Shown here piece by piece: positions 15,086-50,917 of a DNA stretch of 51,236 nucleotides (position 1 is the stretch's first letter; each line of letters starts with the position of its first letter). The DNA is taken from contig CANJCM010000027.1 in assembly GCA_947472765.1 (NCBI GenBank), positions 1-51,236 of the forward strand, written 5' to 3'. Source of the DNA: Opitutia bacterium (GTDB lineage: Bacteria > Verrucomicrobiota > Verrucomicrobiia > Opitutales > Opitutaceae). Both the position numbers and the translations under genes were made by a program. The notes under the pieces are model-generated. The model had not been told where the DNA came from, made no database searches, and worked only from the letters and a program-made list of their open reading frames with translations.

Positions 15086-15220
15086 CCACAGATGGACCCA
15101 AATGGACCCAGATGAGAGCAATCGCTCCAATCTCAATCTCCGAGCCGACTAAACACAAAGGCACGAAGACGCAGAGAATCCGATCCGGTTGAACTCGGTG
15201 CCTCGGTGTCTCGGTGATTA
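15086..15220. repeat. Short-period intergenic repeats (10-bp and 8-bp families)
   Basis: This fills most of the 305-bp gap between divergent genes. At about 15086-15115 a 10-bp period is seen (GATGGACCCA repeated, family GATGGACACA). At 15149-15180 an 8-bp period is seen (GCACGAAG, ACGCAGAG), answered in inverted orientation at 15194-15220 by CGGTGCCT, CGGTGTCT, CGGTGATT. The rest of the gap shows no recognisable promoter. Confidence 0.7.
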
Positions 15221-15330
15221 ATCGCCGTGCTCCTGGGCAAATTTTGTGCAGGTGATTTCCGGTTGCGGGGCCGATGCGCATGCGTCACGGCGAAAGGCTG
15301 CCGCCGCCTGCGCGAATCACGCTTTTCCTC

Positions 15331-16233
15331 ATGAGCACGTTTCACCTCCACCCCAGCCTGCCCCCCATCAGCCCCATCTGCCTCGGTGGCTCCACCTTCG
15401 GCCGCGAGATTCCGCAGGACGCCTGCTTCGCCCTGATGGACGGCGCGGTGGAGCGCGGCATCACGCTCATCGACACCGCCGCCATGTACGGCGCCGGGGT
15501 GTCGGAGAAAATTGTCGGGGCCTGGCTCGCCTCACGCCGGCCCGCGCCGGGTTCGCTGAACATCGCGACCAAGATTTATCCGCCGTTTACCGCCGCCGCG
15601 ATCGACAGCGCGGTCGCCGGGTGCGCCCAGCGGCTGGGGGTGGAAACGATCGACCTGCTTTATTTCCACAAGTGGGACGCCGGGGCCGAAACCGCGGAGG
15701 CGCTGCGGGCGCTCGACGGACTCGTCCGCTCCGGCCGGGTGCGGGCGCTGGGCGTGAGCAACTTCACGGCGGCGCAGTTGCGCTTCGTGCTGACGGTGCA
15801 GGCGCAGCTCGGACTCACGCCTTTCCGCGCCCTCCAGAACGTGAACAACCTCGCCGTGCATGAAGTCGACGCCGCACTCACCGCGCTGTGCGCCGCCCAC
15901 GGCGTGGCGATTATCACCTACAGCCCGATCGGGGCCGGTTATCTCACCGGTAAACATCGCGGCGGCGTCGCCCCCGGCTCGCGTTTCGACGTGGCCCCGG
16001 GACACCAGCCGATCTACTTCAAGCCCGGCCCCGAACGCCGGCTCGCGAAACTGGCGGCAGTCGCCGAGCGCACCGGAAAAACGATGGCGCATCTGGCCCT
16101 CGCCTGGGCGATGCACCGTCCCGGCGTGACCTCCGTGCTCGTCGGTGGTCGGACGCCCGTGCATCTCGATCAAGCGTTCACGGCGCTCGCGCACAACGAC
16201 CCGGCGCTGTTTGCGGAGCTGGAGGCGGATTGA
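15331..16233 (+). CDS. Aldo/keto reductase
   Basis: The 300-residue product is an NAD(P)H-dependent aldo/keto reductase with the usual (beta/alpha)8 barrel. The catalytic tetrad is visible as Asp48 and Tyr53 (in IDTAAMYGAG), Lys81 (in IATKIYPP) and His112 (in LLYFHKWD). Other family marks are RALGVSNFTAAQL and ITYSPIGAGYLTG, and the nucleotide-binding end is TSVLVGGRTPVHLDQ. The substrate is unknown; relatives reduce sugar aldehydes or oxidise sugars such as L-fucose or D-threo-aldose. The ATG at 15331 (MSTFHLHP) was preferred to one at 15274 because the upstream residues fall in the intergenic region. Confidence 0.92.
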   Translation: MSTFHLHPSLPPISPICLGGSTFGREIPQDACFALMDGAVERGITLIDTAAMYGAGVSEKIVGAWLASRRPAPGSLNIATKIYPPFTAAAIDSAVAGCAQRLGVETIDLLYFHKWDAGAETAEALRALDGLVRSGRVRALGVSNFTAAQLRFVLTVQAQLGLTPFRALQNVNNLAVHEVDAALTALCAAHGVAIITYSPIGAGYLTGKHRGGVAPGSRFDVAPGHQPIYFKPGPERRLAKLAAVAERTGKTMAHLALAWAMHRPGVTSVLVGGRTPVHLDQAFTALAHNDPALFAELEAD

Positions 16234-16308
16234 GAAACTCATCCGCGTAATGTACTCCGAAGTTGGCAAGGTCGCTCGCGCCGTGAGCAACCGTGTAAAA
16301 GTCCTCTG

Positions 16309-16437
16309 TCATTCTGAGCGAAGCGAAGAATCCATGCGGTCGAGTGAGCGTCAGGCGTGGATTCTTCGCTTCGCTCAGAATGACAAAGAGAGGGGCGGGG
16401 CAAGAATTGGTCCCTGCCCTCACGGGCAGGGCTACGG
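16309..16437. repeat. Palindromic repeat TCATTCTGAGCGAAGCGAAG and a second hairpin
   Basis: TGTCATTCTGAGCGAAGCGA at about 16308 is answered by its reverse complement ending near 16384, around a spacer of about 25 bp. A single arm of the same family lies near 38669. A separate hairpin (CCCTGCCC-TCA-CGGGCAGGG, 16413-16431) follows. Together they fill the 252-bp gap and could end transcription of the aldo/keto reductase gene. Confidence 0.7.
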
Positions 16438-16485
16438 CGACCCCCGAATTCCGGAATCCGAGTCTCTCTTATCTTTCCCACTCCC

Positions 16486-17502
16486 ATGAATTCCGCCCAA
16501 CGCCTGATGTTCGTCTCGTCGCCCTCCGCCCCGCGCGTCGAGCTCGAGTCGTTTCCCATTCCCGTTCCCCAGGCCGGGCAGGTGCTCGTCCGCAACACCC
16601 ACTCGCAGGTCAGCGCCGGCAGCGAATCGAACTTCCTGCGGTTCGGGCCGCAGTCCTATGGCCTGCCGGAAAGCGCGCTCCGCGCCAACATCGGCTACAT
16701 GACGGTCGGCCGCATCCTCGCGATCGGCCCCGGCGTCACCGGTTTTGCGATCGGCGATCGCGTGACCACGGCGGCCGGCCACTCCAGTCACGCGCTGATC
16801 GATGTCACGCCGACCGCGGCGATCGATCCCGTCCCGGACGGAACGCCGGACGAGGCCGCGGGTTTCGCCGCGCTCGGCGATGTGGCGCTGCACGGCGTAC
16901 GCCGCGCGCAGATCCAGATTGAGCAATCCGTCGCGATTTTCGGGATGGGCATCGTCGGGCAACTCGTCCTGCAGTTTGCCCGCTGCTCCGGCGCGCACCC
17001 CATCATCGCGATCGATCTCGTCGACGAACGCCTCGAACTGGCCCGGCGCAGCGGCGCGACCCATGTCATCAACCCGTCGCGCGAGGACGTCGTCGCCCGG
17101 GTCAGAGAAATCACGCGAGGTGCCGGCGCCGAGGTCGTGTTCCACTGCGCTCAGGCTGCCAGCATCCTGCAAACGACGATGGAATGCGCCTCCGACCGCG
17201 GCACCGTCGTTCTCACGGGCAGTCCTCCCGGCACGGCCACGATCCGGTTGAAGGAGGAATTGCTGCGCAAGGAGCTCAAGCTCACGGGCACCTACGAAAC
17301 GGGCATGACGGTCCCGCACGCCTACTGGCCCTGGACTCGACAACGCAACCGCCGCTCCTTCCTGCGGATGGTCGCCTCCGGCCAACTCCATCTCGGGCAC
17401 CTGCTCACGCATGTCGTGCCGGCCACGGACGCTCCCGGAATCTACGACCTCGTCCTCCGCGGCAGCACTGGCTGGCTCGGAATCGTCTTCCGCTGGGAGT
17501 AG
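16486..17502 (+). CDS. MDR-superfamily (zinc-type) dehydrogenase
   Basis: The 338-residue protein is a medium-chain dehydrogenase/reductase. The N-terminal GroES-like domain includes VLVRNTHSQVSAGSESNFLR, typical of the subgroup with a SAGSE/SAGTE motif in place of the catalytic zinc cysteine. The Rossmann fold is at about residues 150-170 (VAIFGMGIVGQLVLQFA), followed by the NAD-selecting acidic residue in IIAIDLVDERLELARR. No structural-zinc cysteine lobe is visible, so it is probably zinc-independent. The substrate is unknown; sugar alcohols or BchC-like substrates are the nearest family precedents. The following gene is 560 bp away, so it appears to be a single-gene unit. Confidence 0.85.
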   Translation: MNSAQRLMFVSSPSAPRVELESFPIPVPQAGQVLVRNTHSQVSAGSESNFLRFGPQSYGLPESALRANIGYMTVGRILAIGPGVTGFAIGDRVTTAAGHSSHALIDVTPTAAIDPVPDGTPDEAAGFAALGDVALHGVRRAQIQIEQSVAIFGMGIVGQLVLQFARCSGAHPIIAIDLVDERLELARRSGATHVINPSREDVVARVREITRGAGAEVVFHCAQAASILQTTMECASDRGTVVLTGSPPGTATIRLKEELLRKELKLTGTYETGMTVPHAYWPWTRQRNRRSFLRMVASGQLHLGHLLTHVVPATDAPGIYDLVLRGSTGWLGIVFRWE

Positions 17503-17521
17503 CGCGCCGGCCGCCGGCGCG

Positions 17522-17556
17522 CGATTTTGGATTTTGGATTCTCGATTTTGGATTGG
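17522..17556. repeat. 7-bp-period array, GATTTTG family
   Basis: Units read GATTTTG, GATTTTG, GATTCTC, GATTTTG, GATTGGT without gaps. The same five-unit design, including the odd GATTCTC unit in third place, recurs at 33659-33693 and 44305-44342 and inverted at 44482-44519. Confidence 0.8.
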
Positions 17557-17790
17557 TTGAAGCGCGTTCCGCCGCCCGACACGCCCGCAAAAAAGTCACC
17601 CAACACACCCCGCGCTTCGGGCACCCCTCTCCAGCCGGAACGATGCCGTGAAACGAAATCGGCGGGTGTGGGCACCCGCCCTCCATGGTAGTCGGATCGT
17701 TCAGACTTCCGTTCGCTCTCCTCTCCAAGAGCAATCCATGGAGGGACGGTGCCCCCACCGTCCAGGGCTTCCCAACCTGCGACGGAACGT

Positions 17791-17860
17791 CCACTGATCG
17801 GTGCAGGGCCGGCGCTCGTCGCCAGGCCACGGCTATCGTTCGCGAAAAGGCCCGCCGGCG
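17791..17860. repeat. GTAGGGCCGGCG-family element, diverged copy
   Basis: The segment CACTGATCGGTGCAGGGCCG and the following GGCGCTCGTCGCC core match the near-perfect palindromic copy at 45901-45989, including the central spacer TTCGCGAAAAGGCC. The right arm here is degraded. Confidence 0.7.
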
Positions 17861-17994
17861 AGCCGTTCGACAGGCTCACGGCCTGCCGTTCGCTTAGAAT
17901 AAAGGCTCTGAGCCAGTCGAAGGGCAGCGGCCCTACACTCCACAACTAGGTCCGGCCCGTCCCACTCCCCTCTCGCGGCGCCCCGGCGCCGCTT

Positions 17995-18022
17995 AGGTTT
18001 TTTGCCCCCGGGCAAAAAACCT
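17995..18022 (+). promoter_or_regulatory. Perfect stem-loop in the leader of the hydroxyacid dehydrogenase gene
   Basis: AGGTTTTTTGCCC pairs with GGGCAAAAAACCT over 13 bp around a two-base loop. It ends 42 bases before the ATG at 18064. Related stem-loops sit directly before the genes at 21378 and 23151, so it may be a shared leader element or a small repeat family. It could also be a terminator for upstream transcription. Confidence 0.5.
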
Positions 18023-18063
18023 TCCATTTTCCCTGGTCAGGCTTTGAAGTCTCCCTCCTGCCC

Positions 18064-19044: not shown

Positions 19045-19054
19045 GAATGATGCC

Positions 19055-19173
19055 TCGGTTGAGAGTTGAGAGCTGAGAGTTGAGAGAACCAGTCATCGGT
19101 CTCCGCAACTTCTCAATCTCGGCACTTCATCCCGGGCTTCGCTCTCAACTCTCAACCCTCAACTCTCAACTAC
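19055..19173. repeat. 7-bp-period inverted pair, GAGAGTT family
   Basis: The left arm (about 19057-19083) reads as GAGAGTT units and the right arm (about 19143-19173) as CTCTCAA units. The arms are inverted relative to each other around about 60 bp. This fills the 139-bp gap between two genes that are probably co-transcribed, so the RNA could fold into a long hairpin. Confidence 0.75.
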
Positions 19174-19183
19174 TCTGCCCCCC

Positions 19184-20281: not shown

Positions 20282-20296
20282 GGCGCGCCGCGCTTG

Positions 20297-20345
20297 GGAT
20301 TTCGCTGCCGCGAAATCCTAGGCCATTTTGGCTGCGCCAAACTGG
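20297..20345 (+). other. Two adjacent small hairpins after the LDH2 gene
   Basis: GGATTTCGC-TGCC-GCGAAATCC (20297-20318) is related to the leader stem-loops at 21350 and 23123. It is followed by an imperfect hairpin, about 20323-20345, with stem TTTGGC/GCCAAA. They lie between the LDH2 stop and a stronger terminator. Confidence 0.5.
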
Positions 20346-20355
20346 CGAGTGCATG

Positions 20356-20383
20356 AAGACCGCGGGTGACCGCGGTCTTTTTT
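20356..20383 (+). terminator. Rho-independent terminator
   Basis: AAGACCGCGG-GTGA-CCGCGGTCTT is followed by a run of T. The 10-bp GC-rich stem with a short loop and T tract is a textbook terminator ending the transcript that carries the two dehydrogenase genes. Confidence 0.9.
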
Positions 20384-20411
20384 GTGCCCGGATAACGAGT
20401 CGATGCGGCTT

Positions 20412-20489
20412 TGTGGGGCCGGCGCTCGCCGCCGGGCCGCTTCATGACGCCTTCTCCTCTCTCGTAGGGGCGTGCCTCGTGCGCGCCCT
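20412..20489. repeat. GGCCGGCGCTCG and GTAGGGGCG hairpin repeats
   Basis: A GGGCCGGCGCTCGCCGCCGG-type hairpin (about 20412-20440) is followed by a GTAGGGGCGTGCCTCGTGCG hairpin (about 20464-20489). Both belong to families seen elsewhere in this window. Confidence 0.65.
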
Positions 20490-20594: not shown

Positions 20595-20687
20595 CCGCCA
20601 GAGTTAGTGTCGGGTTAGTGAGAGTTAGTGGTTAAATTCCCCGGAGCTTTGGAACCACTAACGGACACTAACGGAACACTAACGTCC
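20595..20687. repeat. TTAGTG-type inverted-pair repeat, period about 10 bp
   Basis: The left arm has three GTTAGTG units spaced 10-11 bp (20600-20632). The right arm has CACTAACGGA units (about 20654-20686). The arms face each other across AAATTCCCCGGAGCTTTGG. Related arms lie at about 40815-40856, 41056-41096 and 41210-41243. The element abuts the larger repeat that starts near 20690. Confidence 0.75.
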
Positions 20688-20689
20688 CG

Positions 20690-20956
20690 AGCCGGGGTGG
20701 GAGCCTGAAGCCATGAATCCAGAAAACGATCCGCTCCGGGCATCCTGCCCATCCTGTTCATCCTGTCCAAATCTTGATCGGAGCCTGCCCTGCGACTCTG
20801 CGCCCTTTGTGTTCCGATTCAGATCGTGGCCGCGAGCGTGAGCGAGTGGAGCTGAGCAGAGCTGATCCGCAGATGAAGCCGGGCGGCTGACCGACGGTCG
20901 TGGCAGGTACGAATCCGACTTCCGGAACTCTAGGTTCACCGGTGCCACGCGTCGTC
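20690..20956 (-). repeat. Dispersed repeat of about 270 bp, copy A (inverted)
   Basis: Read on the minus strand this matches the stretch at 38818-39110 almost throughout and, in part, 40906-41041. It begins with CGACGCGTGGCACCGG, contains a 9-bp-period block (CAGGATGAA, CAGGATGGG, CAGGATGCC), and ends near GGCTTCAGGCTCCCACCCCG. Its first part forms the 3' end of the truncated ERCC4-type gene. Confidence 0.85.
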
Positions 20957-22924: not shown

Positions 22925-23008
22925 AAGTGTAGGGCCGGCGCTCGTCGCCGGGCCGCGAGGCGAATGAAGTTCGCGGCGTGCCGGCGAGCGGCAGCCCTAC
23001 ACCGGACA
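22925..23008. repeat. GTAGGGCCGGCG-family palindromic element
   Basis: TGTAGGGCCGGCGCTCGTCG at the left is answered by an inverted GCCGGCGAGCGGCAGCCCTA at the right around a spacer of about 25 bp. It occupies much of the 243-bp gap between the dehydratase and kinase genes. Confidence 0.75.
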
Positions 23009-29600: not shown

Positions 29601-31835
29601 ATGGTGAATTCCCCGCGTCCTTCCGTCGCGCTCCTCGCGGCATTCCTTCTCCTCCCCCTGCGCCTCGCCGCGGCGGAACCCCAGGCCGCCTCCGGCGCAA
29701 GTGAGGCCCCTCCCACCGCCGCCGTCACGGCCATTACCGGAAAGATCACGATCGACGGCCAACTCGATGAACCAGAGTGGCAGAGCGCACCGAAACTCGC
29801 CCGGCTCGTCCAGCGCCAGCCGAACCCTGGACAGGCCCCGACGGAGCGGACCGAGGTCACCCTGCTCCATGACGCGGACTATCTCTACATCGGCGTACTC
29901 GCCCTCGACTCGGAACCGGGCCGCGTCATCGGCACGCAGATGTCGCGCGATGCCACGCTCGGCTCCGACGACCGGATCGAGGTGCTCCTCGATACCTTTC
30001 TCGATCAGCGGAACGCCTTCTACTTCGCCACGAATCCTTCCGGCGCGCTCGTCGACGGTCTGCTTTCCTCCGAGCAACTGAACACCAACTGGGACGCAAT
30101 CTGGCAGGTCCGCACCCGTCGCACCGATCGCGGCTGGATCGCCGAGTTCGCGATCCCGTTCAAGAGCCTCAGCTTTCCCGCGGACCGGACTTCGTGGGGC
30201 TTCAATCTCTCCCGCAGCGTGTATCGCAAGCTGGAGGAAATTCGCTGGTCCGGCGCCCGGCTCGAGACGCCGTTCAACCAAGTTTCCGAGGCGGGCCAGA
30301 TCACGAATCTCGTCGGGTTGAAACAGGGCATCGGCCTGGACGTCCGGCCTTATGTGGCGGGTCACTGGCTGAACCGGCGGTCGACGGCCGGTTCCGACTA
30401 CGCGAAAGGCCACACCGGGCTCGATGTTTTTTATAACATCACGCCCAGCCTGAAACTCACCGGCACGCTCAACACCGACTTCGGCGAGACGGAGGTCGAT
30501 GCGCGCCAGATCAACCTGTCGCGCTTCTCGGTCCTGCTGCCGGAGAAGCGCTCGTTCTTTCTCGAGGACGCCGGCGTCTTCAACTTCGCCAGTATCGGAC
30601 CGACGCCGGCCGGCGGCATCGCCAGCACCGGCGCGGACATCTATCCGTTCTTCAGCCGGCAAATCGGATTGCTCGCCGGCCAGGAAGTACCGATCGACGG
30701 CGGACTCAAGCTCACCGGCAAGACCGGTCGCACGGATCTCGGACTGCTCGCGGTCCAGACCGGCGACACCTCATTCGTCGAGGGGAAGACGTTCCTGATC
30801 GGCCGCGTTCGCCAGAACCTCTTCGAGCAATCCTACGTCGGCGCCATCTTCACCGACGGACATCCCGGCGCCCGCCAGTCGGGCCAGACTTACGGCGCCG
30901 ACTTCCGGCTCGCGACGTCCCATTTCCTCGGGGAGAAGCGCAACTTCGTCGTCGATGGCTATGCGTTGCGCAGCGCGAATCGCGGCGTGTCCGACGACGA
31001 TGTCTCGTGGGGTTTCTCGGCGCGTTACCCCAACGACAAGTTCGACACGCAGTTCGTGGTGCGCGAGATACCGCGCAACTTCCGTCCCGGCCTCGGCTTC
31101 GTCCAGCGCAGCAATGTCCGGATGTACCGCGGCGCGGTCAGCTTCAACCCGCGGCCGGACGACTTCCTCAACATCCAGCAGATGTTTCACGACGTCTACT
31201 ACACCCGCTTCGAACGCGCCGACACCGGCCAGCTCGAGAGCTCGGATCTCTACATCACGCCGCTCGACTGGCACTTCAAGTCGGGCGATTCGGTGCACGC
31301 CGTCTTCGACCCGAATTGGATCTACGAGCGGCTCTTCTCGAACTTCGAAATCGCCCCCGGCGTCGTTCTCCGCCCCGGCGAGTATCGGTTCACCCGCTAC
31401 AAGGCCTCGATCGCCTCCGCGTCGAAGCGCCGGTTGTCCGGCAGCGTGAACCTCAATTGGGGTGACTATTGGTCCGGCTCCGCCGAGCAGGTTTCGACTT
31501 CGCTCACGTACAAGCTGCCGCCGTGGTTCACGTTCACCCTGAGCGCCAATCAGACTTTCGCGCGGCTACCCGAGGGCGACTTCACGGCGCGGATCTACAC
31601 CTCGACCGTGAACTACTCGTTCTCGCCGCAACTCTCGCTCTCGAACCTCATCCAGTTCGACAACCGGTCGCGCAATCTCGGATGGCAGGGACGACTGCGC
31701 TGGACGCCCGTGCCGGGCCGTGACCTGTTCCTCGTCTTCAGCCAGGGCTGGCTGAAGGATCCCACCGGCAGCGGCCGCTTCACGCCGCAGGACAGCAAGC
31801 TCTCGACGAAGCTGCAGTATACTTTCCGGTTTTAA
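29601..31835 (+). CDS. CBM9-like/DUF5916 outer-membrane protein
   Basis: The 744-residue protein has a signal peptide (to about residue 25). A carbohydrate-binding family 9-like domain follows (about 45-235; KITIDGQLDEPEWQ, DYLYIGVLALDSEP, WIAEFAIPFKSLSF), then a DUF5916 region rich in amphipathic beta-strands that ends in aromatic FRF, typical of an outer-membrane barrel. Family precedent suggests a surface protein that binds or admits glycans; no enzymatic residues are recognised. It is followed by a repeat and the LamG-like secreted protein gene on the same strand, suggesting a surface-polysaccharide locus. Confidence 0.85.
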   Translation: MVNSPRPSVALLAAFLLLPLRLAAAEPQAASGASEAPPTAAVTAITGKITIDGQLDEPEWQSAPKLARLVQRQPNPGQAPTERTEVTLLHDADYLYIGVLALDSEPGRVIGTQMSRDATLGSDDRIEVLLDTFLDQRNAFYFATNPSGALVDGLLSSEQLNTNWDAIWQVRTRRTDRGWIAEFAIPFKSLSFPADRTSWGFNLSRSVYRKLEEIRWSGARLETPFNQVSEAGQITNLVGLKQGIGLDVRPYVAGHWLNRRSTAGSDYAKGHTGLDVFYNITPSLKLTGTLNTDFGETEVDARQINLSRFSVLLPEKRSFFLEDAGVFNFASIGPTPAGGIASTGADIYPFFSRQIGLLAGQEVPIDGGLKLTGKTGRTDLGLLAVQTGDTSFVEGKTFLIGRVRQNLFEQSYVGAIFTDGHPGARQSGQTYGADFRLATSHFLGEKRNFVVDGYALRSANRGVSDDDVSWGFSARYPNDKFDTQFVVREIPRNFRPGLGFVQRSNVRMYRGAVSFNPRPDDFLNIQQMFHDVYYTRFERADTGQLESSDLYITPLDWHFKSGDSVHAVFDPNWIYERLFSNFEIAPGVVLRPGEYRFTRYKASIASASKRRLSGSVNLNWGDYWSGSAEQVSTSLTYKLPPWFTFTLSANQTFARLPEGDFTARIYTSTVNYSFSPQLSLSNLIQFDNRSRNLGWQGRLRWTPVPGRDLFLVFSQGWLKDPTGSGRFTPQDSKLSTKLQYTFRF

Positions 31836-31857
31836 GCGTAGCGAAGATTCGAGCCGT

Positions 31858-31937
31858 TTAACCACGAAGTCACGAAGACACAGAGATCGGGATCCATCCG
31901 CCCGCTCCGTGCCCTTCGTGCCTTCGTGGTTAAACCC
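31858..31937. repeat. 8-bp-period inverted pair, CACGAAG family
   Basis: The left arm reads CCACGAAG, TCACGAAG, ACACAGAG. The right arm answers with CCTTCGTG, CCTTCGTG and GTTAAA. The two arms form a long inverted repeat bounded by TTAACCACGAAG and CTTCGTGGTTAA. Confidence 0.85.
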
Positions 31938-32077
31938 GGTTTGAGGATTGGCGCCTTGGAGGTTTGCCCTCGAACTCGTGGCCGTCACCCTCTGTTCGCC
32001 GCGCAGAGAAAGAGAACGAGCCCCCCCGCCGACGCTCACCCCGATAACTTTTCCAGCCAGCCCCCAACACCCTCACC

Positions 32078-32764
32078 ATGACCCTCGCTCCCCGCGTGCC
32101 CCACCTCCTCGCCGCCCTCGCCCTCCTCCTCCCCGCATCACTCAACGCCGCCGAAATCTGGAAGCTCGACAACACCGACCAGATTGGCGGCCACCTGGTC
32201 GTCATGCTCGGCGAGCCCAAGGTCCAGGATCAGGCCGGCATCAAGGGTCTGTTTTTCGACGGAGCGAAGGACGGGATCATTCTTCCGACCCTCCCGATCG
32301 CCGGCGCGGAACAGTACACGGTTGAAATCCTCTTCTATCCGGCGGAAGGCGGCACCGTCACGCCACGCTCAGGCCTCGTCGAGGAGCGGTTCTTCCATCT
32401 CGGCGATCGCGCGTTCGGACGGCTGATGATGGAGACGCGCAAGAACGGCCAGGGCGTCTGGTGGCTCGATCACTTTATCTCCACGCCAAGCCAGAAGAGC
32501 ATCGTCTCGATCAATCCGAAGCTCACGCACCCGACGAACCAGTGGTACTGGGTCGCCGTACGCTGGGACGGCACGACGATGTCGTCATACATTAATGGGC
32601 AGAAGGAATTCGAGAAATCCGGCAAGGCCATCCCCTTCGTCAAGGGCCAGGTCTCACTCGGTGTCCGCCAAACGATCGAGTACTGGTTCAAAGGCGGCAT
32701 CAGCGAGGTGCGGTTCCACCGCGAGGTGGTCGCGCCGGACAAACTGCAACGCGTCAATAAATAG
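32078..32764 (+). CDS. Secreted LamG-like (concanavalin A-fold) domain protein
   Basis: The 228-residue protein has a signal peptide (LLAALALLLPASLNA, cleavage about residue 24) and one domain with the LamG/pentraxin pattern: GLFFDGAKDGIILPTLP, YTVEILFYPAEGG, and WYWVAVRWDGTTMSSYINGQ followed by an acidic residue. Such domains bind carbohydrates and are common in Verrucomicrobiota secretomes. No catalytic domain is present. The cyclase gene follows 88 bp later, so the two may be co-expressed. Confidence 0.8.
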   Translation: MTLAPRVPHLLAALALLLPASLNAAEIWKLDNTDQIGGHLVVMLGEPKVQDQAGIKGLFFDGAKDGIILPTLPIAGAEQYTVEILFYPAEGGTVTPRSGLVEERFFHLGDRAFGRLMMETRKNGQGVWWLDHFISTPSQKSIVSINPKLTHPTNQWYWVAVRWDGTTMSSYINGQKEFEKSGKAIPFVKGQVSLGVRQTIEYWFKGGISEVRFHREVVAPDKLQRVNK

Positions 32765-32852
32765 CCTCAGCCCAAAGCCGGCCGCCCTGTCCTCCGGCTT
32801 CCGTCCTCCGTCCCTCCGCCCCTCCGACCCTCGGAACCTCCGACCCTCCGGC

Positions 32853-33656
32853 ATGAAAGAACTGCTCCGCCTGCTGCGCGGCTCGCGCGTGATCGATCTC
32901 GCGCAGCCGTATTTCGCCGGCATGCCGCACCACCCGGCCCACGCGCCGTATCTCTACGGCATGATCAAGCAGCACGGCGACATGATCACCGCCGGTGGAG
33001 TCAGCTCCGCCGCCGATGCGATCGCCCTGGGCTGTCACGTCGGCACGCACGTCGACGCGCTCTGCCATTTTTCCTGCGGCGGCAAACTCCACGCCGGCGT
33101 CGAGGCCCGCCCGCTCCAGTCCGCGACCGGCGGACTGCAGAAGTACTCCATCGACACGATCGCGCCGTTCTTCCGCCGCGGCGTGCTGCTCGATGTCGCG
33201 GCGCACGTCGGCCAGGAAGCGCTCGCCACCGACTTCGTCATCACGCCCGCGCACCTCGAAGCCACGGCCAAGGCCCAGAAGGTCGCGATCGAGCCGGGCG
33301 ACGTCGTTCTGCTCCGGACCGGCTGGGCGAAATACTGGCATGACGCGCCCCGCTACATCAGCGGCGGACACGGCCTCGGCGCTGCCGGACCCGGCCCGAA
33401 AATCGCCGGCGCCCGGTGGCTCAGCGAACGCGGCATCGTCGCCGGCGGCTCGGACACGGTGGCGTTCGAAAGCCTGCCGGATCCCGAGATGCCCGTGCAC
33501 GTGCACTTCCTCGTCGAAAGCGGCATCCACATCATCGAGGCCCTCAACCTCGAGGAACTCTCCCGGCTGCGGATCTATGAATTCGTTTTTGTCGCCGCGC
33601 CGCTGAAAATCATCGGCGGCACGGGTTCGCCGATCCGGCCGCTCGCGCTGGCCTGA
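32853..33656 (+). CDS. Metal-dependent cyclase/kynurenine formamidase-family hydrolase
   Basis: The 267-residue protein belongs to the cyclase (PF04199-type) family. The metal-binding motif HxGTHxD is at residues 62-68 (CHVGTHVDALCHF). Other conserved parts are VIDLAQPYFAGMPHHP, GDVVLLRTGWAKYW and GIVAGGSDTVAFE, the last near the usual second metal-site region. Known members hydrolyse N-formylkynurenine, isatin or cyclic amides/lactones. No tryptophan-degradation gene is nearby, and the setting among carbohydrate genes makes a lactonase-like role possible. The ATG at 32853 was chosen; the longer frame overlaps the LamG gene. Confidence 0.88.
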   Translation: MKELLRLLRGSRVIDLAQPYFAGMPHHPAHAPYLYGMIKQHGDMITAGGVSSAADAIALGCHVGTHVDALCHFSCGGKLHAGVEARPLQSATGGLQKYSIDTIAPFFRRGVLLDVAAHVGQEALATDFVITPAHLEATAKAQKVAIEPGDVVLLRTGWAKYWHDAPRYISGGHGLGAAGPGPKIAGARWLSERGIVAGGSDTVAFESLPDPEMPVHVHFLVESGIHIIEALNLEELSRLRIYEFVFVAAPLKIIGGTGSPIRPLALA

Positions 33657-33658
33657 TC

Positions 33659-33693
33659 GGATTTTCGATTTTGGATTCTCGATTTTGGATTTC
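33659..33693. repeat. 7-bp-period array, GATTTTG family
   Basis: Units read GATTTTC, GATTTTG, GATTCTC, GATTTTG, GATTTCA. The odd GATTCTC unit sits in the same place as in the other copies, showing common descent. Confidence 0.8.
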
Positions 33694-33881
33694 AGCGCCG
33701 TAGGGCCGGCGCCCTTCGGCTAGTTCAGGGCCTGCCATACGTAATGTCCTACCGTGAGCCCGTCGAACCGGCTCGCCGCCGGACCTCTTCGTTCCAAGCA
33801 GCCATCCCTGGAGGGACGGTGCCCCCACCGTCCATCCGCCGTAACGTCCGACTGACGGCGCCCACGCCAAACGCCGGAGAC

Positions 33882-33913
33882 AACCACAGATGGACACGGA
33901 TGGACACAAATTC
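33882..33913. repeat. 10-bp-period array, GATGGACACA family
   Basis: AACCACA is followed by GATGGACACG, GATGGACACA and AATTC. Related arms are at 15086, 35720, 35823, 46074 and 46177. Confidence 0.75.
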
Positions 33914-34267: not shown

Positions 34268-34350
34268 AAAAATTCGGCACTCGCCACTCGGCACTCGAAA
34301 CTTGGTTCCCATTCGGCACTCGCCATTCGCCAATCGGCACTCACGGCAAT
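34268..34350. repeat. 7-bp-period array, CACTCGC family
   Basis: Units such as CACTCGC, CACTCGG, CACTCGA, then TCGGCAC, TCGCCAT, TCGCCAA, TCGGCAC keep a 7-bp step for about 80 bp although the unit changes. It lies about 90 bp before the next gene. Confidence 0.7.
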
Positions 34351-35680: not shown

Positions 35681-35719
35681 ACGCCGCGGCCGACTCGACC
35701 CGGAACGATGCAGTTGAAA

Positions 35720-35855
35720 CTACAGATGGACACAGATGAACACGAATGAAGCCGGAACCGCACAGCGAGGTTACCGGTCAGTGCCCCGCTCTCTTAGCGA
35801 AGGATTTAGAACCGTTCGCTCTTCATCTGAGTCCATCAGTGTTCATCTGTGGTTG
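35720..35855. repeat. 10-bp-period inverted pair, GATGGACACA family
   Basis: The left arm (35720-35750) reads GATGGACACA, GATGAACACG, AATGAA. The right arm (35823-35855) is the inverted form ending CATCTGTGGTTGG. The 70-bp spacer shows no gene. Confidence 0.8.
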
Positions 35856-38817: not shown

Positions 38818-39110
38818 GTGCCGACGCGTGGCACCGGGTGAACCTACAGTTCCGGAAGTCGGATTCGTACCTGCCACGACCGTCAGTCAGCCGCCCGGCT
38901 TCGTCTCCTGAAATCGGCGCCATCTGCGGATCACCTCTGCTCCGCTCCACTCGCTCACGCTCCCGGCCACGATCTGATTTGGAACCCAAAGGGCGCAGAG
39001 TCGCAGGGCAGGCTCCGATCAAGATTTGGACAGGATGAACAGGATGGGCAGGATGCCAGGAGCGGATCGTTTCCTGGACTTCTGGCTTCAGGCTCCACCC
39101 CGGCTCCGGC
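38818..39110 (+). repeat. Dispersed repeat of about 270-290 bp, copy B
   Basis: It matches copy A (20690-20956, opposite strand) from CGACGCGTGGCACCGG to GGCTTCAGGCTCC, with a few small differences, including the 9-bp-period CAGGATGAA/CAGGATGGG block. It ends two or three bases before the left inverted repeat of the RAYT element. Confidence 0.85.
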
Positions 39111-39112: not shown

Positions 39113-40202
39113 AAAAAGGGGTCATGGTAGGATTCGGGATATTGCAGTCTGAACCGCGGCCTGATCGAGGGCGCCCGACTTCCGGAACCGACACAGCCAG
39201 GGTCCGAGACTGGCCGGTGCTCCCATCTGCAGCCGTTGCGCGAGCCAGCTTCGCGAGACCGACGTCTTGAGCTTCATCGCTGCGGCCAGCAGCAGCTTTT
39301 CATCGGCGGATTTCTTCGGCGGGAGACTGTCGAGTGAAATTCCGAGTTCACCGGCCAGTCCACGTAACTGCTCTTCCCAGAGCTCGGCCCGGGCCGCGAC
39401 GACCGCCTCGCGATCCGCGCCCAGGATTGAAAAGCTCTCCCGCCGGTCCTGGAGACGGGAGCGTAACTCCGCGCGATAGGCGGGAGAGCCCAAGGCCCAG
39501 GCCCGTCTGAGCTTCGCGAATCCCTTTTCGCGCATCACCGGATCCTTTTCCCAGAGCACACCCAGATTCTCGCGATAGCGGCGCCATCCTGTCAGGGTGT
39601 CATTGAGACGCCCGCTTTCGCCGAGCACCGTCGCCGGTTCCAGCCACGCCGGCCGATCGCGACGAGGGAACGAAGCCAGGCTGCTCCACCGATAATCCCC
39701 CACCCGTTCCACCGGAACGAGTCCTGCCTCGACTGGATTCAGGTGAACGTAGTGCGCGACCTGGGCGACGACGTGCCCCGGTTCGAGGGGCTTGGCGAAG
39801 AACCGGCCCTGAAACGGACGGCCTTTGATCCCACGGTACCGGTTGAAGCGCTGGGCCCAGGTGCCCTGCAGCCACTGCATGCCCTCGCTCAAATTTGGCT
39901 CCGGAGTTTCGAGCACGAGATGAAAATGGTTCTGCATGATCGAGTAAGCGTGCACGAGCCACCCGTGGCTCGTGCACGCTTCATCGAGGCAGCGGTAGAA
40001 CGACCGGGCGGCGCCTTCTGGCCCGAAGATTGGCTGCCGGTAGTTGCCGCGGTTGATGACGTGGTAGCAGGCGCCCGAGAACTCGAGCCGGAGCTGGCGA
40101 GGCATAATCCCGCCTAACTCCGGCCGGGGACACGGTCGCTTCAAACGTCGAGAGGCCCCAATTCGCAGGGAAATATCCCGAATCCTACCATGACCCCTTT
40201 TT
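39113..40202. mobile_element. RAYT (Y1 transposase) element bounded by perfect 31-bp inverted repeats
   Basis: Bases 39113-39143 and 40172-40202 are exact reverse complements; the outer end starts AAAAAGGGGTCATGGTAGGA. Between them lies a single REP-associated tyrosine transposase gene. The right end interrupts a secreted-protein gene, and the left end abuts repeat copy B. No target-site duplication is obvious, which fits Y1-type transposition. The inverted ends are unusual, because IS200/IS605-type elements normally use subterminal hairpins. Confidence 0.8.
39122..40105 (-). CDS. REP-associated tyrosine transposase (RAYT), Y1 HUH family
   Basis: The 327-residue protein has the Y1 transposase domain. 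The HUH metal motif is His60-Phe-His62 in MQNHFHLVLETP, and the catalytic tyrosine is probably Tyr119 in HYVHLNPVEAGLV. The start MPRQLRLEFSGACYHVINRG is typical. A C-terminal extension of about 190 residues contains a helix-turn-helix-like SWLAQRLQMGAPASLGPWL. The ATG at 40105 was chosen over a TTG/ATG extension to 40144. The stop codon lies inside the left 31-bp inverted repeat. RAYT proteins spread or process palindromic intergenic repeats, which are exceptionally frequent here. Confidence 0.92.
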   Translation of the reverse strand: MPRQLRLEFSGACYHVINRGNYRQPIFGPEGAARSFYRCLDEACTSHGWLVHAYSIMQNHFHLVLETPEPNLSEGMQWLQGTWAQRFNRYRGIKGRPFQGRFFAKPLEPGHVVAQVAHYVHLNPVEAGLVPVERVGDYRWSSLASFPRRDRPAWLEPATVLGESGRLNDTLTGWRRYRENLGVLWEKDPVMREKGFAKLRRAWALGSPAYRAELRSRLQDRRESFSILGADREAVVAARAELWEEQLRGLAGELGISLDSLPPKKSADEKLLLAAAMKLKTSVSRSWLAQRLQMGAPASLGPWLCRFRKSGALDQAAVQTAISRILP

Positions 40203-40814: not shown

Positions 40815-41290
40815 CTTAACCACCAACTTTCACTAACCGAACCGCTAACTCTGGCGGGGCGAGTCGAACGCGCGGTGACACCACGCCTCCATGTTTATGC
40901 ACTTGAGATCGCTCCACTCGACACAGAGTCGCAGGGCAGGCTCCGATCCACATTTGGACAGGATGAACAGGATGGGCAGGATGCCCGGAGTGGTTCGTTT
41001 CCTGGATTCCTGGCTTCAGGCTCCCACCCCGGTTTGGGTTCGTGCCAATCCTCCAGATTTAACCACTAACTCTCACTCACCGGACACTCACGCTGGCGAT
41101 CAGGCCAGAACGCGCGGTGAGGGCACCGCGCCTCCATGGTTATGCATGCGAGATCGCTCCACTGGCTCACGCTCGCAGCCACGAGAAAGCCGCAACAAAT
41201 CGGAACACTTCGTTAGTGTCCCGTTAGTGCCCGTTAGTGGTTCCAAAGCTCTGCTCTGAATCAGTGTCCGATAAGTGAAAATAAGTGGTT
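40815..41290. repeat. Composite repeat region including copy C and TTAGTG arms
   Basis: A module of about 110 bp (TTAACCACCAACTTTCACTA, then a CGCGGTG hairpin, CCTCCATG, GAGATCGCTCCACT) occurs twice in direct order at about 40815-40925 and 41055-41165. Between them lies partial copy C of the dispersed repeat (about 40906-41041, with the CAGGATG block). A TTAGTG array at 41210-41243 is inverted relative to the one at 41056, and a weaker form continues to 41290. Confidence 0.8.
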
Positions 41291-44257: not shown

Positions 44258-44304
44258 TTGGATCAGAGTAGCGTGAGGGCGGCCGGGGGCCGGATCAATT
44301 CAGA

Positions 44305-44519
44305 GGATTTTGGATTTTGGATTCTCGATTTTGGATTTTCGAGCTGTAGGGCCGGCGCTCGCGCCGGGCCGCATGTTTCGCAGATGCCAGACCGGACAAC
44401 CACAGATGAAGGGATGGCGCTCTCCTAAATCAGGGGCCACCTTCAAGGCGCGAAAGGCCTTCTCAACGCCGGCGTCGCCGACCAATCCAAAATCAAGAAT
44501 CCAAAATCCAAAATCTCAA
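44305..44519. repeat. 7-bp-period inverted pair, GATTTTG family, with a hairpin inside
   Basis: The left arm (44305-44342) reads GATTTTG, GATTTTG, GATTCTC, GATTTTG, GATTTTC. The right arm (44482-44519) is the inverted form with units AATCCAA. Between them lie a GTAGGGCCGGCG hairpin (44346-44372) and a short CCACAGATGAAGG fragment. Confidence 0.8.
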
Positions 44520-45694: not shown

Positions 45695-45900
45695 GCGCGG
45701 GAGGATGCGGGGTAAGGAAATTCAGGGCAATGACCGGCTCAAAACGCGCTCCGGGGACCGGTGAGGCAAGAATATTTGCCACGGGGTGGTCGGGGTCGTG
45801 CTGAGAGCAGGCCCCGGGAATCGTTCTCGTTCTCGGGAGGCACGGCCGTCGATTTGAGAGAACGAGAAAGATAACGATTACGAGCACGAGAAAATGGAGA

Positions 45901-45989
45901 GTCACTGATCGGTGTAGGGCCGGCGCTCGTCGCCGGGCCACAGCTTTCATTCGAGAAAAGGCCCGGCGGCGAGCGCCGGCCCTACATTC
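45901..45989. repeat. GTAGGGCCGGCG-family element, most complete copy
   Basis: GTGTAGGGCCGGCGCTCGTC followed by GCCGGGCC on the left is matched by GGCCCGGCGGCGAGCGCCGG and CCCTAC on the right around a spacer of about 20 bp, TTTCATTCGAGAAAA. It is nearly a perfect palindrome. Confidence 0.85.
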
Positions 45990-46073
45990 AACTGCGTCGT
46001 TCCGGCTCAAGAGGGGACCTTTCGAACCGCGTTCCGAAGGTCCCCTCTGGAGCCCGATCTATGCAGTGGAAAC

Positions 46074-46210
46074 AATCACAGATGGACACAAATGGACACG
46101 GATTCAGATGCGCCGATAACACCGGGCGGCTAGAAATCAGGCACACCGTTTGGTGGGCGATGGCCGGGGTCTTCCCCATCTGTGTGCATCGGTGTCCATC
46201 TGTGGTTCAA
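46074..46210. repeat. 10-bp-period inverted pair, GATGGACACA family
   Basis: The left arm reads GATGGACACA, AATGGACACG, GATTCA. The right arm (46177-46210) is inverted and ends CCATCTGTGGTTCAA. The spacer is about 70 bp. Confidence 0.8.
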
Positions 46211-46265
46211 CTGAATGGTGCCGTTCTGCGTCCTCCCTTAACTTCTGTGTCCTCTGCGTTCAAAG

Positions 46266-46450
46266 GATGGGAGTTTGGAGTTTGGAGTTTGGAGTTTGGA
46301 GTTTGGAGTTTGGAGTTTGGAGTTCGTTGTCCGCCGTCTGTGGTCTGTCGTCCGCGTTCTATGGTCCATTGTCCGTGGTCTATCGTCTTTGGTCCGCCGT
46401 CTGCCGTCCGTCGTCCCATCGCAGAACTCAAAACTCAGAACCCAAAACGG
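46266..46450. repeat. Block of three successive 7-bp-period arrays
   Basis: First about eight copies of GGAGTTT (46267-46325). Then about thirteen 7-mers of the form xxxGTCy (for example GTGGTCT, GTCGTCC, ATGGTCC; to about 46418). Then AAACTCA, GAACCCA, AAACGGC (46425-46450). The step stays at 7 bp while the unit changes. The block ends about 50 bp before the RND start codon. Confidence 0.82.
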
Positions 46451-46499
46451 CTCCCTTGCGCAACCGGCACGGCTCTAGCAGCGTCCGTCCTCTCCATCC

Positions 46500-49400: not shown

Positions 49401-49730
49401 GGCCTGAGTGCCTACGACGCCGCCATCGAGGCCGCGACCACGCGTCTTCGTCCCGTATTGATGACCGCACTCGCAATGATTCTCGGCGTCATTCCGATGG
49501 CCATCGGCGCGGCGCAGGGCGGCGAGCAAAACGCCCCGCTCGGCCGCGCCGTCATCGGCGGCCTCGTCTTTGGCACGTGGGCGTCGCTCTTCCTCGTCCC
49601 GGTCGCGTTCGCGATCGCTCGCGGCCGGACCCGGCACTCCACGCCGGCCGCAAAATCGACCGGCGCGCCCGCTCCCACCATCCGCGCTGTCACCGCCGCT
49701 CCCGAACGCGTCCTCACACCTTCGTCATGA
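46500..49730 (+). CDS. RND-family efflux transporter permease
   Basis: The 1076-residue inner-membrane pump subunit has the usual RND plan: a first span near residues 12-29, two large periplasmic loops and a total of about twelve spans. MSTDILPRVDSPELLLVWNY, the TM4 stretch GGLSLAIGILVDNALVEIEN and the TM10-11 stretch IIMVVGVSTANSVLVGSFAR are visible. Asp401 matches one of the two proton-relay aspartates of AcrB. The next residue is Asn402, and the position of the AcrB TM10 lysine appears to be Ala952, so the relay differs. The gene precedes, and overlaps by ATGA, its adaptor gene. No outer-membrane channel gene is adjacent. Substrate unknown. Confidence 0.93.
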   Translation: MWIVLFALRYKYTVAVFAILILLFGVLSSRKMSTDILPRVDSPELLLVWNYGGLNATDMAAKLTSFSETATMNNVDDLAEIRSETSNGIGLVKLRFQPYADMSTAVAQATAISQAIIRRMPPGTVPPLVIRTRPSSVPIIQLVVASDSMSNGQLFDYARFNLRAQLQSIPGMRITLPYGGAQRQVMIDLDPGSLDTFGLSAGEVANAVSRQNLTLPAGTIREGSRELPIEINASPETIDAFLDLPLRSINGNTVLLRDVAHVRDGEAVITNIARLDGQNACIVSILKLGSASTVDIIDGIRARLPEIRLAAPPGVSVEPIFDQSIFVRAAVSAVQHEILLVGGLVALVVLLFLGSWRSTAIVLTSIPLALLCSVLGLYLVGSTFNLMTLGGLSLAIGILVDNALVEIENTKRQIALGKDVHQAIVDGAREVAFPEFVSTLAICIVFLPVFLLSGTAADVFRPLALAVVFAMAASYVLARTLVPTLASILLPAEQEAERRAAGQPPRGLAWLHHAIEHGIDLVSIRQKRWLQRLLARKSLILIPVGLAVGLGLLATWKAGREFFPKTDAGLMRLFVRLPSGLRLEDTANTLADIQREIRTLIPTGELQFVVENIGAPAAVNQAWIETASITSSDGEVLIQLHGRHAPTVSYEGKIRAMLIAKFPQVRFFFRPADATSQTLASGAATTFEVRFLGRDVPGNLALARELKERLSKVPGAVDVDVREVLDQPSYAVRIDRIRAATLGVSQQDAATTLLSALGSAGSIASNVWADASVGTSYDVQVIAPPANLVSVEQLLNLTVRPGNGGAPVPLRAFATITEKRSPASISRTTLLPTMTLVANVAGRDLGSVSRDLDVILKDIRTRLKPGNRIELAGQAALMRSSYAELIGGLGLAAVLVFLVMVVNFQSWSLPFVAISGLPVAVSGAVFALWVTGTPVSVPALMGIIMVVGVSTANSVLVGSFARDRFDAGLSAYDAAIEAATTRLRPVLMTALAMILGVIPMAIGAAQGGEQNAPLGRAVIGGLVFGTWASLFLVPVAFAIARGRTRHSTPAAKSTGAPAPTIRAVTAAPERVLTPSS

Positions 49731-50827
49731 TCGCCCGCTCCCGTTCGCTTCATCTCCTGATTCTGTCGCTGGTCGCGGCTCCCTGGCTCGCGGCCCAGAC
49801 GCCACCAGCTCCCGCCACTCCGCCGGTCGTGCGCACCGTGGCGCCAATCCCGGCCACCAAGGCCGCCGCCTATTCGGTGCCGGGGCGCACCGAGCCAATT
49901 GAGTCCGCGCGGATTTTCACCCGGGCGACCGGCATCGTGAAGGAACGCCGGTTCGACATCGGCGATCGCGTGAAGGCCGGCGACATCCTCGCCGTGGTCG
50001 ACGTGCCGGATTTGACCCGGGCTGTGGAGTCCTCACGCGCCAACGTCGAGCAGGCCGAGGCCCGCGCGGCGAACGCGAAGACGCTCGCGCAACGCGCCAC
50101 GCAGCTGATGGCGGCGAATTCCATTTCCCGCGAGGAGGCGGACCAGCGCGCCGCCAACGCCGACATCGCCGAGGCCGCCCTCCGCGTGGCGCGGTCGGAT
50201 CTCGCCCGCTTCGAGGAGCAGTTGAATTTCGCCACGGTCCGCTCGCCCTTCGACGCCGTGGTGGCCGCGCGGAATTTCGACCGCGGTGATCGCGTGCGCG
50301 GCGATGCCGCCACGGCGGAAGGCTGGCTTTATCATCTCGTCCGCATCGACACGCTGCGCTTCGCGCTCAGCGCCGCGCCGGACCTCGCCCTGCGGCTCGA
50401 GCCCAACACTCGCGCCCAAATCCGGTTCGGGGAGTTTCCCGGCCGAACGTTTGCCGCGACCGTCGCCCGGTCGAGCCGCGTCTTCGATCCGGCGGCCGGC
50501 ACGATGCGCGTCGAGCTGCTGGTGGAAAACCCCGAACTGGTGCTCCCCGCCGGCCTGACCGGCACCGCGATCTTTGAACTCGTGCCGGCACCCGGCACCT
50601 TTCTCGTGCCGACCAATACGGTCGTCAGCCGCGCGGGACAGAACTCCCTTGCGACCGTGCAAGGCGGCAAAGTGAGCTTCGTCGACATCGGCCTCGGCCG
50701 GAATCTCGGCTCGACCGTCGAGGTCACGTCCGCCGCCCTGACGCCCAAGACGGCGGTCATCGTGAATCCCAACGCGCTGTTCCGCGCGGGTGATGCCGTT
50801 ACGATCGCCGCGCCGAACGCCAAGTAA
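49727..50827 (+). CDS. RND periplasmic adaptor (membrane fusion protein)
   Basis: The 366-residue protein has a signal peptide (LLILSLVAAPWLAAQ). The adaptor domains follow: lipoyl-like half-motifs (FDIGDRVKAGDILAVVDVPD and TVRSPFDAVVAARNFDRGDR) around an alpha-helical hairpin (about 95-165), then beta-barrel and membrane-proximal domains (LRLEPNTRAQIRFGEFPGRT, LVPTNTVVSRAGQNSLATV). Its ATG overlaps the stop of the permease gene, so the two are translated together. The short hairpin is within the range of single-hairpin adaptors. The gene order, permease before adaptor, is the reverse of the common acrAB order. Confidence 0.93.
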   Translation: MIARSRSLHLLILSLVAAPWLAAQTPPAPATPPVVRTVAPIPATKAAAYSVPGRTEPIESARIFTRATGIVKERRFDIGDRVKAGDILAVVDVPDLTRAVESSRANVEQAEARAANAKTLAQRATQLMAANSISREEADQRAANADIAEAALRVARSDLARFEEQLNFATVRSPFDAVVAARNFDRGDRVRGDAATAEGWLYHLVRIDTLRFALSAAPDLALRLEPNTRAQIRFGEFPGRTFAATVARSSRVFDPAAGTMRVELLVENPELVLPAGLTGTAIFELVPAPGTFLVPTNTVVSRAGQNSLATVQGGKVSFVDIGLGRNLGSTVEVTSAALTPKTAVIVNPNALFRAGDAVTIAAPNAK

Positions 50828-50852
50828 GAAGGCCGCCACTTCAGTCGATTCA

Positions 50853-50917
50853 CCACCGAGACACGGACGCACCGAGAGGTCGGAGTTTGCTCGGTGTCTC
50901 GGCGTCTCGGCGGTTCA
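50853..50917. repeat. 8-bp-period inverted pair, CACCGAGA family
   Basis: The left arm reads CACCGAGA, CACGGACG, CACCGAGA. The right arm reads CGGTGTCT, CGGCGTCT, CGGCGGTT, inverted to the left. It lies between the adaptor gene and larE; the remaining 85 bp before larE hold nothing recognisable. Confidence 0.82.

Follow-up and report, generated by a model that had tools for sequence, protein, structure and literature searches.

Why do the intergenic gaps of a single bacterial contig hold tandem arrays with periods of 6, 7, 8, 9 and 10 bp side by side, often as two inverted arms? The question is raised by a 51,236-nt stretch of DNA from an Opitutia bacterium (GCA_947472765.1, contig CANJCM010000027.1, here C27), called the window, in which an earlier note had described such arrays. 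The dispersed short-period intergenic repeats in this genome were confirmed, and the five periods are not five systems: there are two classes, A and B. A class B arm consists of about 4.5 contiguous heptamers. A class A arm consists of three copies of the core CRCNRAN separated by spacers of 1-4 nt and usually has an AAC cap. On balance, we lean towards the view that these arms of about 30 nt, which are single or face each other in inverted orientation across a loop of variable length and sequence, are dispersed elements like REPINs (doublets of repetitive extragenic palindromic (REP) sequences), spread by a trans-acting machinery.

The genome comprises 4,968,708 bases in 157 contigs and is 95.9% complete. 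A sample of 451 kb (the window plus 400 kb) was analysed, with 58,715 intergenic bases according to a home-made gene caller. For each array, self-match at lags from 5 to 12 was compared with that in 300 dinucleotide shuffles of the 400-nt context around it (n = 26: the arrays of the earlier note, partner arms and two CAGGATG blocks at 39 and 41 kb). The claimed fixed-period arrays stood up, with 24 of 26 reaching p ≤ 0.037 and the claimed lag being the best one in all 24. Two arms, at 15149-15180 (p 0.23) and at 50853-50880 (p 0.46), were not significant by lag; each is paired in inverted orientation with an arm that is, and three CRCNRAN-fitting cores at step 8 can be made out in it by eye. 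The autocorrelation of intergenic sequence that the note had proposed as a check gave 31 segments at lag 7 in the sample, where coding density would predict 0.4 and none of 20 shuffles produced any. Only 2, 3 and 0 segments passed this strict threshold at lags 8, 9 and 10, since the arms concerned consist of just three or so diverged units, and a grammar test was therefore needed for them.

The sampled gaps contain 76 inverted repeats, 21 with periodic arms (loose criterion) and 55 non-periodic; ten inverted pairs have period 7. The suggestion that inverted arms could form long hairpins was thus supported in silico, with strong hairpins in five of seven folded stretches: RNA folding gave z-scores of -4.2 to -7.1 for those at 19045, 20600, 31850, 35715 and 46070, -1.8 at 45815 (the 6-bp array) and -0.1 for 44300-44440, where the stretch folded lacks the second arm.

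The earlier note had further proposed a constant step for each family. This is true of the heptamers, whose step is exactly 7, whereas the 8-10 bp class mixes steps within some arrays (10/11 at 20654, 11/10 at 41211). Since steps differ inside one class A array, the core is what is constant, not the step. Periods 8, 9 and 10 belong to a single superfamily with one grammar and differ in the length of the spacer; they are not the separate families that had been supposed. For comparison, 27 genomes of the genus, 145 genomes of the phylum Verrucomicrobiota and loci from other phyla were used (G-numbers denote genomes of relatives, C a contig and L a fetched locus). Arrays of step 8-10 start or end at AACC/GGTT in 6 of 13 cases in the own genome (0.7 expected), 4 of 17 in the genus (1.0 expected) and 22 of 41 in other phyla (2.9 expected, copies of the searched pattern removed). 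Heptamer arrays lack this excess (1/35, 0/21 and 4/55 in the same sets, against 2.0, 1.3 and 3.9 expected). The expression AACC[AG]C-NRAN-n(1-4)-C[AG]C-NRAN found 259 arms in 257 distinct contexts, compared to 1 in reversed sequence; 28 are from the own sample, 13 from the genus, 164 from other phyla and 54 from Verrucomicrobiota. Their steps are 8 (13 arms), 9 (18), 10 (227) and 11 (1), proportions that are biased in the last two sets, which were fetched with the 10-bp form.

In 151 capped 10-bp arrays, part of which were fetched with a pattern fixing some letters, successive units, compared by phase counted from the cap, mismatch at 0.04, 0.04, 0.02, 0.27, 0.05, 0.01 and 0.02 over the seven core positions and at 0.20, 0.41 and 0.09 in the spacer. 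The phase signal is weaker in 27 capped 8-bp arrays (0.08, 0.15, 0.17, 0.22, 0.00, 0.03 and 0.09, spacer 0.22) and absent from the core of 28 capped 9-bp arrays, many of which resemble coding repeats. Triples of an exact core with unequal steps occur 95 times, compared to 12 in a block shuffle, with maximal core lengths of 6 (46 cases), 7 (35) or more (14); those of the shuffle are all of 6.

For the core itself, the repeated 7-mer was fitted to CRCNRAN on either strand, with reversed sequence as the control. In a recount, overlapping triples were merged, duplicates dropped and 73 of 172 arrays set aside as bait copies. Of the arrays with a step other than 7, 53/99 then fit, compared to 0/99 reversed (unequal-step 20/36 against 0/36; equal-step, 8-12, 33/63 against 0/63), while heptamer arrays give 0/24 in both directions. 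Own and genus sequences alone give 18/44 against 0/44. With the bait retained, 21/37 unequal-step and 104/135 equal-step arrays fit after merging; before merging, the counts were 22/40, 107/148 and, for heptamers, 0/30 (reversed 0/39, 0/149 and 0/32). Outside the motif stand the CAGGATG 9-bp blocks, which are 8/9 step mixtures, and the array CCTCCGAC at 32805.

Next to their shared form, the arms recur as copies at many loci. A 20-nt pattern of the 10-bp type has 59 matches in the own genome, including 13 plus/minus pairs 104-109 nt apart; among the pairs fully read, five have by eye the loop and outer flanks in common, an element of about 220 bp, and further copies consist of a single arm. 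Two class A copies in G143 have 40 nt in common and those of G120 mostly 36-50 nt, some pairs more. As a transposon with an internal gene was also considered, open reading frames between distant class A arms were tabulated in 6 loci. In class B, the heptamer arm GATTTTSGATTTTGGATTCTCGATTTTSGATT has an odd third unit that is retained at many own loci with unrelated flanks and is also present in five congeners. A 25-nt GATTTT pattern for this arm has 142 overlapping matches in the own genome and 0 in the control; in congeners it is found 57 times in G004, 50 in G001, 16 in G015, 6 in G018, 4 in G017 and once in G014, and it has no match in 20 of the 27 genus genomes. As arm and odd unit are repeated across loci and congeners, independent slippage cannot explain them.

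Growth by slippage was one of two origins suggested in the earlier note. In its fuller form, the arrays would arise by replication slippage in place and the two arms would be homogenised by template switching in the hairpin. The 7.9 perfect GGAGTTT units at 46270 fit such a process, as do the co-change of two arms within a species and a step kept at one gap while the units drift. This keeping of the step, pointed out in the note, was borne out, at one gap also across species. However, the same 32-nt arm with its internal variant recurs amid unrelated flanks in the own genome and in five congeners, steps are unequal inside arrays, and one class A pattern occurs under at least 14 phylum-level names among the matches listed. 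Slippage is therefore already contradicted as the sole cause, is not the main origin, and is very unlikely as the general explanation.

The class A 30-mer pattern AACCACAGATGNACACNNATGNACACNGAT, with 25 fixed bases, matched at least 118 stretches, while by our own arithmetic about 0.0005 would be expected by chance in 257 Gb. The phylum-level names, with Deltaproteobacteria counted apart, come from the 80 matches listed, which include Lacunisphaera and Didemnitutus contigs, nearly complete cyanobacterial isolate genomes and many metagenome-assembled genomes, possibly with binning errors. Across 96 distinct copies, purines predominate at the five free positions (A or G, at one of them G); conservation drops outside the pattern, the next two positions still being mostly purine. 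An inverted partner lies within 350 nt in 33 of these 96 copies from other phyla. Neighbouring class A arms are oriented caps-out (52), in tandem (42) or caps-in (12), and the class A loci of other phyla also hold 48 lag-7 arrays (threshold 14), several of them inverted pairs. Among Verrucomicrobiota, a 26-nt class A form is present in 8/145 genomes and multi-copy in all eight (48, 15, 11, 5, 5, 3, 2 and 2 copies), with no control match. This near-identity in very distant bacteria suggests a machinery that copies or reads the arms. The 30-mer pattern was also seen in 11 stretches of uncultivated viral contigs (L346-L356), for which binning errors are again possible. Four class A arms lie 3.1-3.3 kb apart at L369 (G029:C1:4470000-4486000), all pointing the same way and among many other repeats.

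Four gaps between conserved genes were traced in the relatives, and window positions 31000-33700, used as a fifth query, matched few relatives well. Of the 87 orthologous gap sequences (own ones counted), 26 do not exceed 15 nt, all at three of the four sites. Of the 55 gaps of at least 40 nt, 35 are periodic, 37 have an inverted repeat and 31 have both (p ≤ 0.05, 100 mononucleotide shuffles each). The gap is thus empty in some relatives at three of four sites and filled with different units in others at all four. One gap measures 8-15 nt in 15/25 species; in others, it contains inverted pairs of GATTTTG (own, G004, G001), GATTGCG types (G005, G007), CACGAATG (G020) or GATTTCA (G002), and in G018, G010 and G023 other sequence. 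At three gaps, Fitch counting gives 6, 6 and 8 changes among the states empty, array and other. In the gap between the co-directional 2-hydroxyacid dehydrogenase and Ldh genes, the own genome and G029 have left GTTGAGA arms that agree at all of 29 nt, next to unrelated loops. Across the 31 gaps that are both periodic and inverted, a left arm is complementary to right arms from the same species or unit family and not to those of others, so the two arms change together. Of G020 and G017 (L213, L215), with 92% gene identity, one has a 102-nt class A pair at a place where there is a 10-nt gap in the other, making this the best candidate here for a recent insertion.

The arms have a marked position relative to genes. 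Of the 28 class A arms in the own sample, 27 lie outside predicted genes, although such DNA is only 13% of the sample. A stop codon is at most 10 nt away from 13/31 heptamer arrays (2.7 by random placement), and a start from 4/31 (1.6). A sense stop precedes the cap by at most 30 nt in 29 of 118 class A arms, where 7.6 would be expected. Part of this proximity arises because pairs fill tight operon gaps. The arms could also be iteron-like sites under selection, kept at gene ends as targets of a nucleoid protein or of a global regulator that binds DNA or RNA, which is how the paired tandem sites of Geobacter metallireducens were interpreted in 2009 (PMC2700814). The proximity to stop codons, the constant core with other positions free in capped 10-bp arms, and the arms conserved around a changed loop in G029 would suit binding sites. 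A regulator of this kind is nevertheless rather unlikely to account for the arrays, as the GATTTT pattern is missing from most genus genomes and the class A pattern from 137/145 phylum genomes, and the same gap holds unrelated units or nothing in relatives.

What has to be explained is that defined arms of about 30 nt and their pairs are copied, that they insert or survive in gaps, and that the two arms change in concert. According to the copying view that we prefer, arms and pairs would spread in a transposition-like, REPIN-like manner, with a trans-acting machinery that reads the repeated heptad. Arms may then persist where they do little harm, as in gaps 3' of stop codons, and the spacing would be kept because the reader needs the heptads in register. 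Slippage and conversion between arms would only later tune the copy number, and the mRNA hairpin would be a by-product with a possible effect on transcript ends. Since two thirds of the other-phylum class A copies lack a partner inside 350 nt, the hairpin is not the whole point. A more speculative extension, possible though on the whole doubtful, is that the class A arms are mobile and make up an unnamed superfamily found across bacteria, installed singly or in inverted pairs behind stops by a putative undiscovered trans-acting enzyme that reads the heptads, with class B as its zero-spacer form and periods 7-10 given by 7 + k.

Several points weigh against copying as we propose it. No copying machinery was found among the candidates examined (Y1 transposases and RVT_1): Y1_Tnp occurs in 8/8 class A-positive and 15/16 class A-negative genomes, and arrays occur at 5/35 Y1 loci (3/7 own, 2/28 from relatives). 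No insertion with exact borders or a target duplication was caught; by five genes, identity is 96% for the closest relatives and 93.5% for the closest array-rich pair, and in the best array-rich pairs, G005/G007 and G017/G020, intergenic DNA has diverged too far to give exact insertion borders. The four gaps were picked for their arrays in the own genome, and the core test is partly post hoc, CRCNRAN being derived from the same data; 46/99 arrays of steps other than 7 do not fit it, some of them coding-like repeats. Some copies have more than the arm in common: alignments of 66-398 nt at 68-83% identity link copies in G072, G069, G120 and G180, where several arms lie side by side. A heptamer unit class of the own genome or the genus recurs in 8/55 other-phylum arrays, within the range of the null (mean 2.5, maximum 10). 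Finally, no transfer vehicle was seen, as a single 45-nt query of low sensitivity hit one plasmid record, no phages and no E. coli.

The Y1 counts also bear on the proposal that these are REPINs proper, moved by REP-associated tyrosine transposases (RAYTs, Y1) of the same genomes. Inverted-pair and singlet forms are common to both, seven Y1 genes are present in the own genome, one of which (39122-40144 in the window) adjoins a CAGGATG block, the arrays at three of the seven own loci would fit, and one Y1 is flanked by ordinary palindromic REPs. Yet the arms are not palindromes with GTAG/CGTC tags, the loci fetched from relatives seldom have arrays, Y1 presence does not separate class A-positive from class A-negative genomes, and G005 and G007 have arrays at tested gaps with one Y1 each. 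We consider this proposal quite unlikely. Y1/RAYT as the driver was rejected, no association being found over the 27 genus genomes, 24 chosen genomes and Y1 flanks. The Y1 gene of the window (IS200-like, RAYT-type, minus strand) has 50-nt inverted repeats at its ends (39113-39162 / 40153-40202), beginning AAAAAGGGGTCATGG. At L036 (G000:C32), a Y1 gene has repeated GGCGGGTGTGGGCACCCGCC / CATGGAGGGACGGTG units on both flanks and is likely a classical REPtron. A telomerase-like reverse transcriptase copying a repeated template would explain a defined unit with about three to five copies per arm, and a bacterial reverse transcriptase making tandem-repeat DNA is reported (PMC12632851); as an RVT_1 match is absent from the own genome at its 95.9% completeness, this origin is extremely improbable.

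The earlier note knew of no named system for these periods. Class B is in fact an already described kind, namely heptamers like the short tandemly repeated repetitive (STRR) sequences, as in cyanobacteria, Xanthomonas, Beggiatoaceae and Geobacter. The STRR heptamers of filamentous cyanobacteria are reportedly treated by Mazel (1990) and Vioque (1997). In the available sections of PMC2670836 and PMC2408588, to which as to the papers below the comparison is limited, they are 7-bp intergenic units of unknown function that form hairpins, e.g. at hupS-hupL. Class B likewise has contiguous, hairpin-forming 7-bp intergenic units; here, in contrast, the host is Opitutaceae-like, several unit families occur per genome and units turn over at orthologous gaps. 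As described in PMC4692102, GGGNATC / GGGGA(C/T)T heptamers of Xanthomonas and Nostoc prefer four units, have inverted forms, lie near stops if on the coding strand or near starts if on the non-coding one, and in that text have no link to mobile genes. Class B has the closeness to stops and the inverted pairs in common with them. They form G-quadruplexes, whereas GATTTTG, GTTGAGA, ATTTGAA and CGGCACT in the window have by eye no G tracts. According to PMC4679880, intergenic TAACTGA heptamers of Beggiatoaceae occur across distant phyla and horizontal spread is proposed, no mechanism being offered; unlike the window arrays, they are almost all direct (one indirect) and mostly just upstream of starts.

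The architecture of class A resembles the predicted paired global-regulator sites of Geobacter metallireducens (PMC2700814), classes 1-3, with three to five tandem repeats of 7-9 bp on opposite strands, among them paired octamers and nonamers, and a variable distance for classes 1 and 2. Comparing consensus sequences only, and by eye, class 2 TCTCCGTS[Y] fits the CRCNRAN complement when S = G. These sites are reported from one genome as separate classes, of which 1 and 2 are evolutionarily related, and the sections available state no cap or common core. REPs and REPINs with RAYTs (PMC3733652, PMC3116915) are extragenic, high-copy and patchy, as singlets and inverted doublets. Class A similarly has singlets and inverted doublets with a spacer and is patchy between species; the difference is that REPs are palindromes with a GTAG or CGTC tag, while the arms here are direct-repeat arrays, no linked transposase having been found. 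An AAC-capped CRCNRAN superfamily was not found described in the literature searched, which did not cover subscription journals, and literal repeat strings as queries gave nothing relevant. Nor did the literature found contain the unification of these periods, the cap, their spread across phyla or the way in which orthologous gaps are refilled.

Short intergenic repeats have so far been reported genome by genome, as separate curiosities. One grammar joining the 8, 9 and 10 bp families is a concrete search key, with which one can look for genes that accompany the arms and ask how a motif of 30 nt remains near-constant across phyla and why one operon gap has different inverted pairs by species. 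If a dedicated enzyme exists, it would represent a new mobility or binding system for small elements.

The features of the window are listed in Table 1. Rfam gave no match at gathering scores and ARAGORN no tRNA or tmRNA in the window, and array density in samples of 11-40 kb per relative was too noisy for ranking genomes.

Table 1. Repeat arms, arrays and blocks in the window (p, lag test; z, RNA fold; rc, reverse complement)
Feature	Position	Strand	Support
Class A-like arm, ACAGATG, step 10, single	15086..15116	+	lag test p 0.007
Class A arm CACAAAG/CACGAAG/CGCAGAG, step 8, diverged	15150..15178	+	p 0.23; cores fit by eye
Class A arm (rc CACCGAG), step 8, partner of 15150	15194..15219	-	p 0.003
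Class B arm GATTTTG/GATTCTC, 7 bp, 20 nt past stop codon	17523..17554	+	lag test
Class B left arm GTTGAGA	19058..19086	+	lag test; z -4.3
Class B right arm, inverted partner of 19058	19142..19170	-	lag test; orthologous gaps
Class A arm (rc CACTAAC), caps inward	20603..20633	-	p 0.037
Class A arm CACTAAC, steps 10 and 11	20653..20683	+	lag test, core triples
CAGGATG-NN 9-bp block within longer repeat	20741..20769	-	
Class A arm AACCACGAAG, step 8	31856..31877	+	p 0.007; z -7.1
Class A arm, inverted partner of 31856	31914..31935	-	lag test
8-bp array CCTCCGAC, assigned to neither class	32805..32850	+	
Class B arm GATTTTC, 3 nt past stop codon	33660..33692	+	lag test
Class A arm AACCACAGATG	33882..33911	+	lag test
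Class B array TCGGCAC/CACTCGC	34274..34342	+	p 0.003
Class A arm ACAGATG	35718..35746	+	lag test; z -4.9
Class A arm, inverted partner of 35718	35822..35853	-	lag test
Class B arm AATTTGA, immediately 3' of stop codon	38568..38595	+	lag test
CAGGATG-NN 9-bp block in long repeat	39027..39055	+	lag test
CAGGATG-NN 9-bp block in long repeat	40955..40983	+	lag test
Class A arm AACCACTAAC	41061..41092	+	inverted-repeat search
Class A arm (rc CACTAAC), steps 11 and 10, partner of 41061	41211..41242	-	
Class B arm GATTTTG	44306..44337	+	lag test
Class B arm, inverted partner of 44306, abuts stop codon	44484..44515	-	lag test
6-bp inverted array TCGTTC/GAACGA, sole 6-bp case in window	45820..45895	.	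p 0.003; z -1.8
Class A arm, one of 13 +/- pairs 104-109 nt apart	46074..46103	+	lag test
Class A arm, inverted partner of 46074	46178..46207	-	z -6.9
Class B array GGAGTTT, 7.9 perfect units	46270..46324	+	lag test
Class A arm CACCGAG, diverged	50852..50877	+	p 0.46; cores fit by eye
Class A arm, inverted partner of 50852	50890..50915	-	p 0.003

The GGAGTTT array is immediately followed by a GTCCGCC-like heptamer array (46325-46416), so that two heptamer families abut. The CAGGATG array is part of a composite intergenic block with long inverted and direct copies at 92-93% identity (20695-20881 and 38915-39101; 20866-20940 and 38837-38911; 40924-41038), two of which are adjoined by class A arms. 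Ordinary REP-like families of inverted pairs, with units beginning GTAGGGGCG, GTAGGGCCGGCGC, CATGGAGGGACGGTG and TGTCATTCTGAGCG, are also present in the own sample, e.g. at 11884-11984, 17665-17759, 22927-23002 and 45913-45986, with the TGTCATTCTGAGCG type at 16304-16388.

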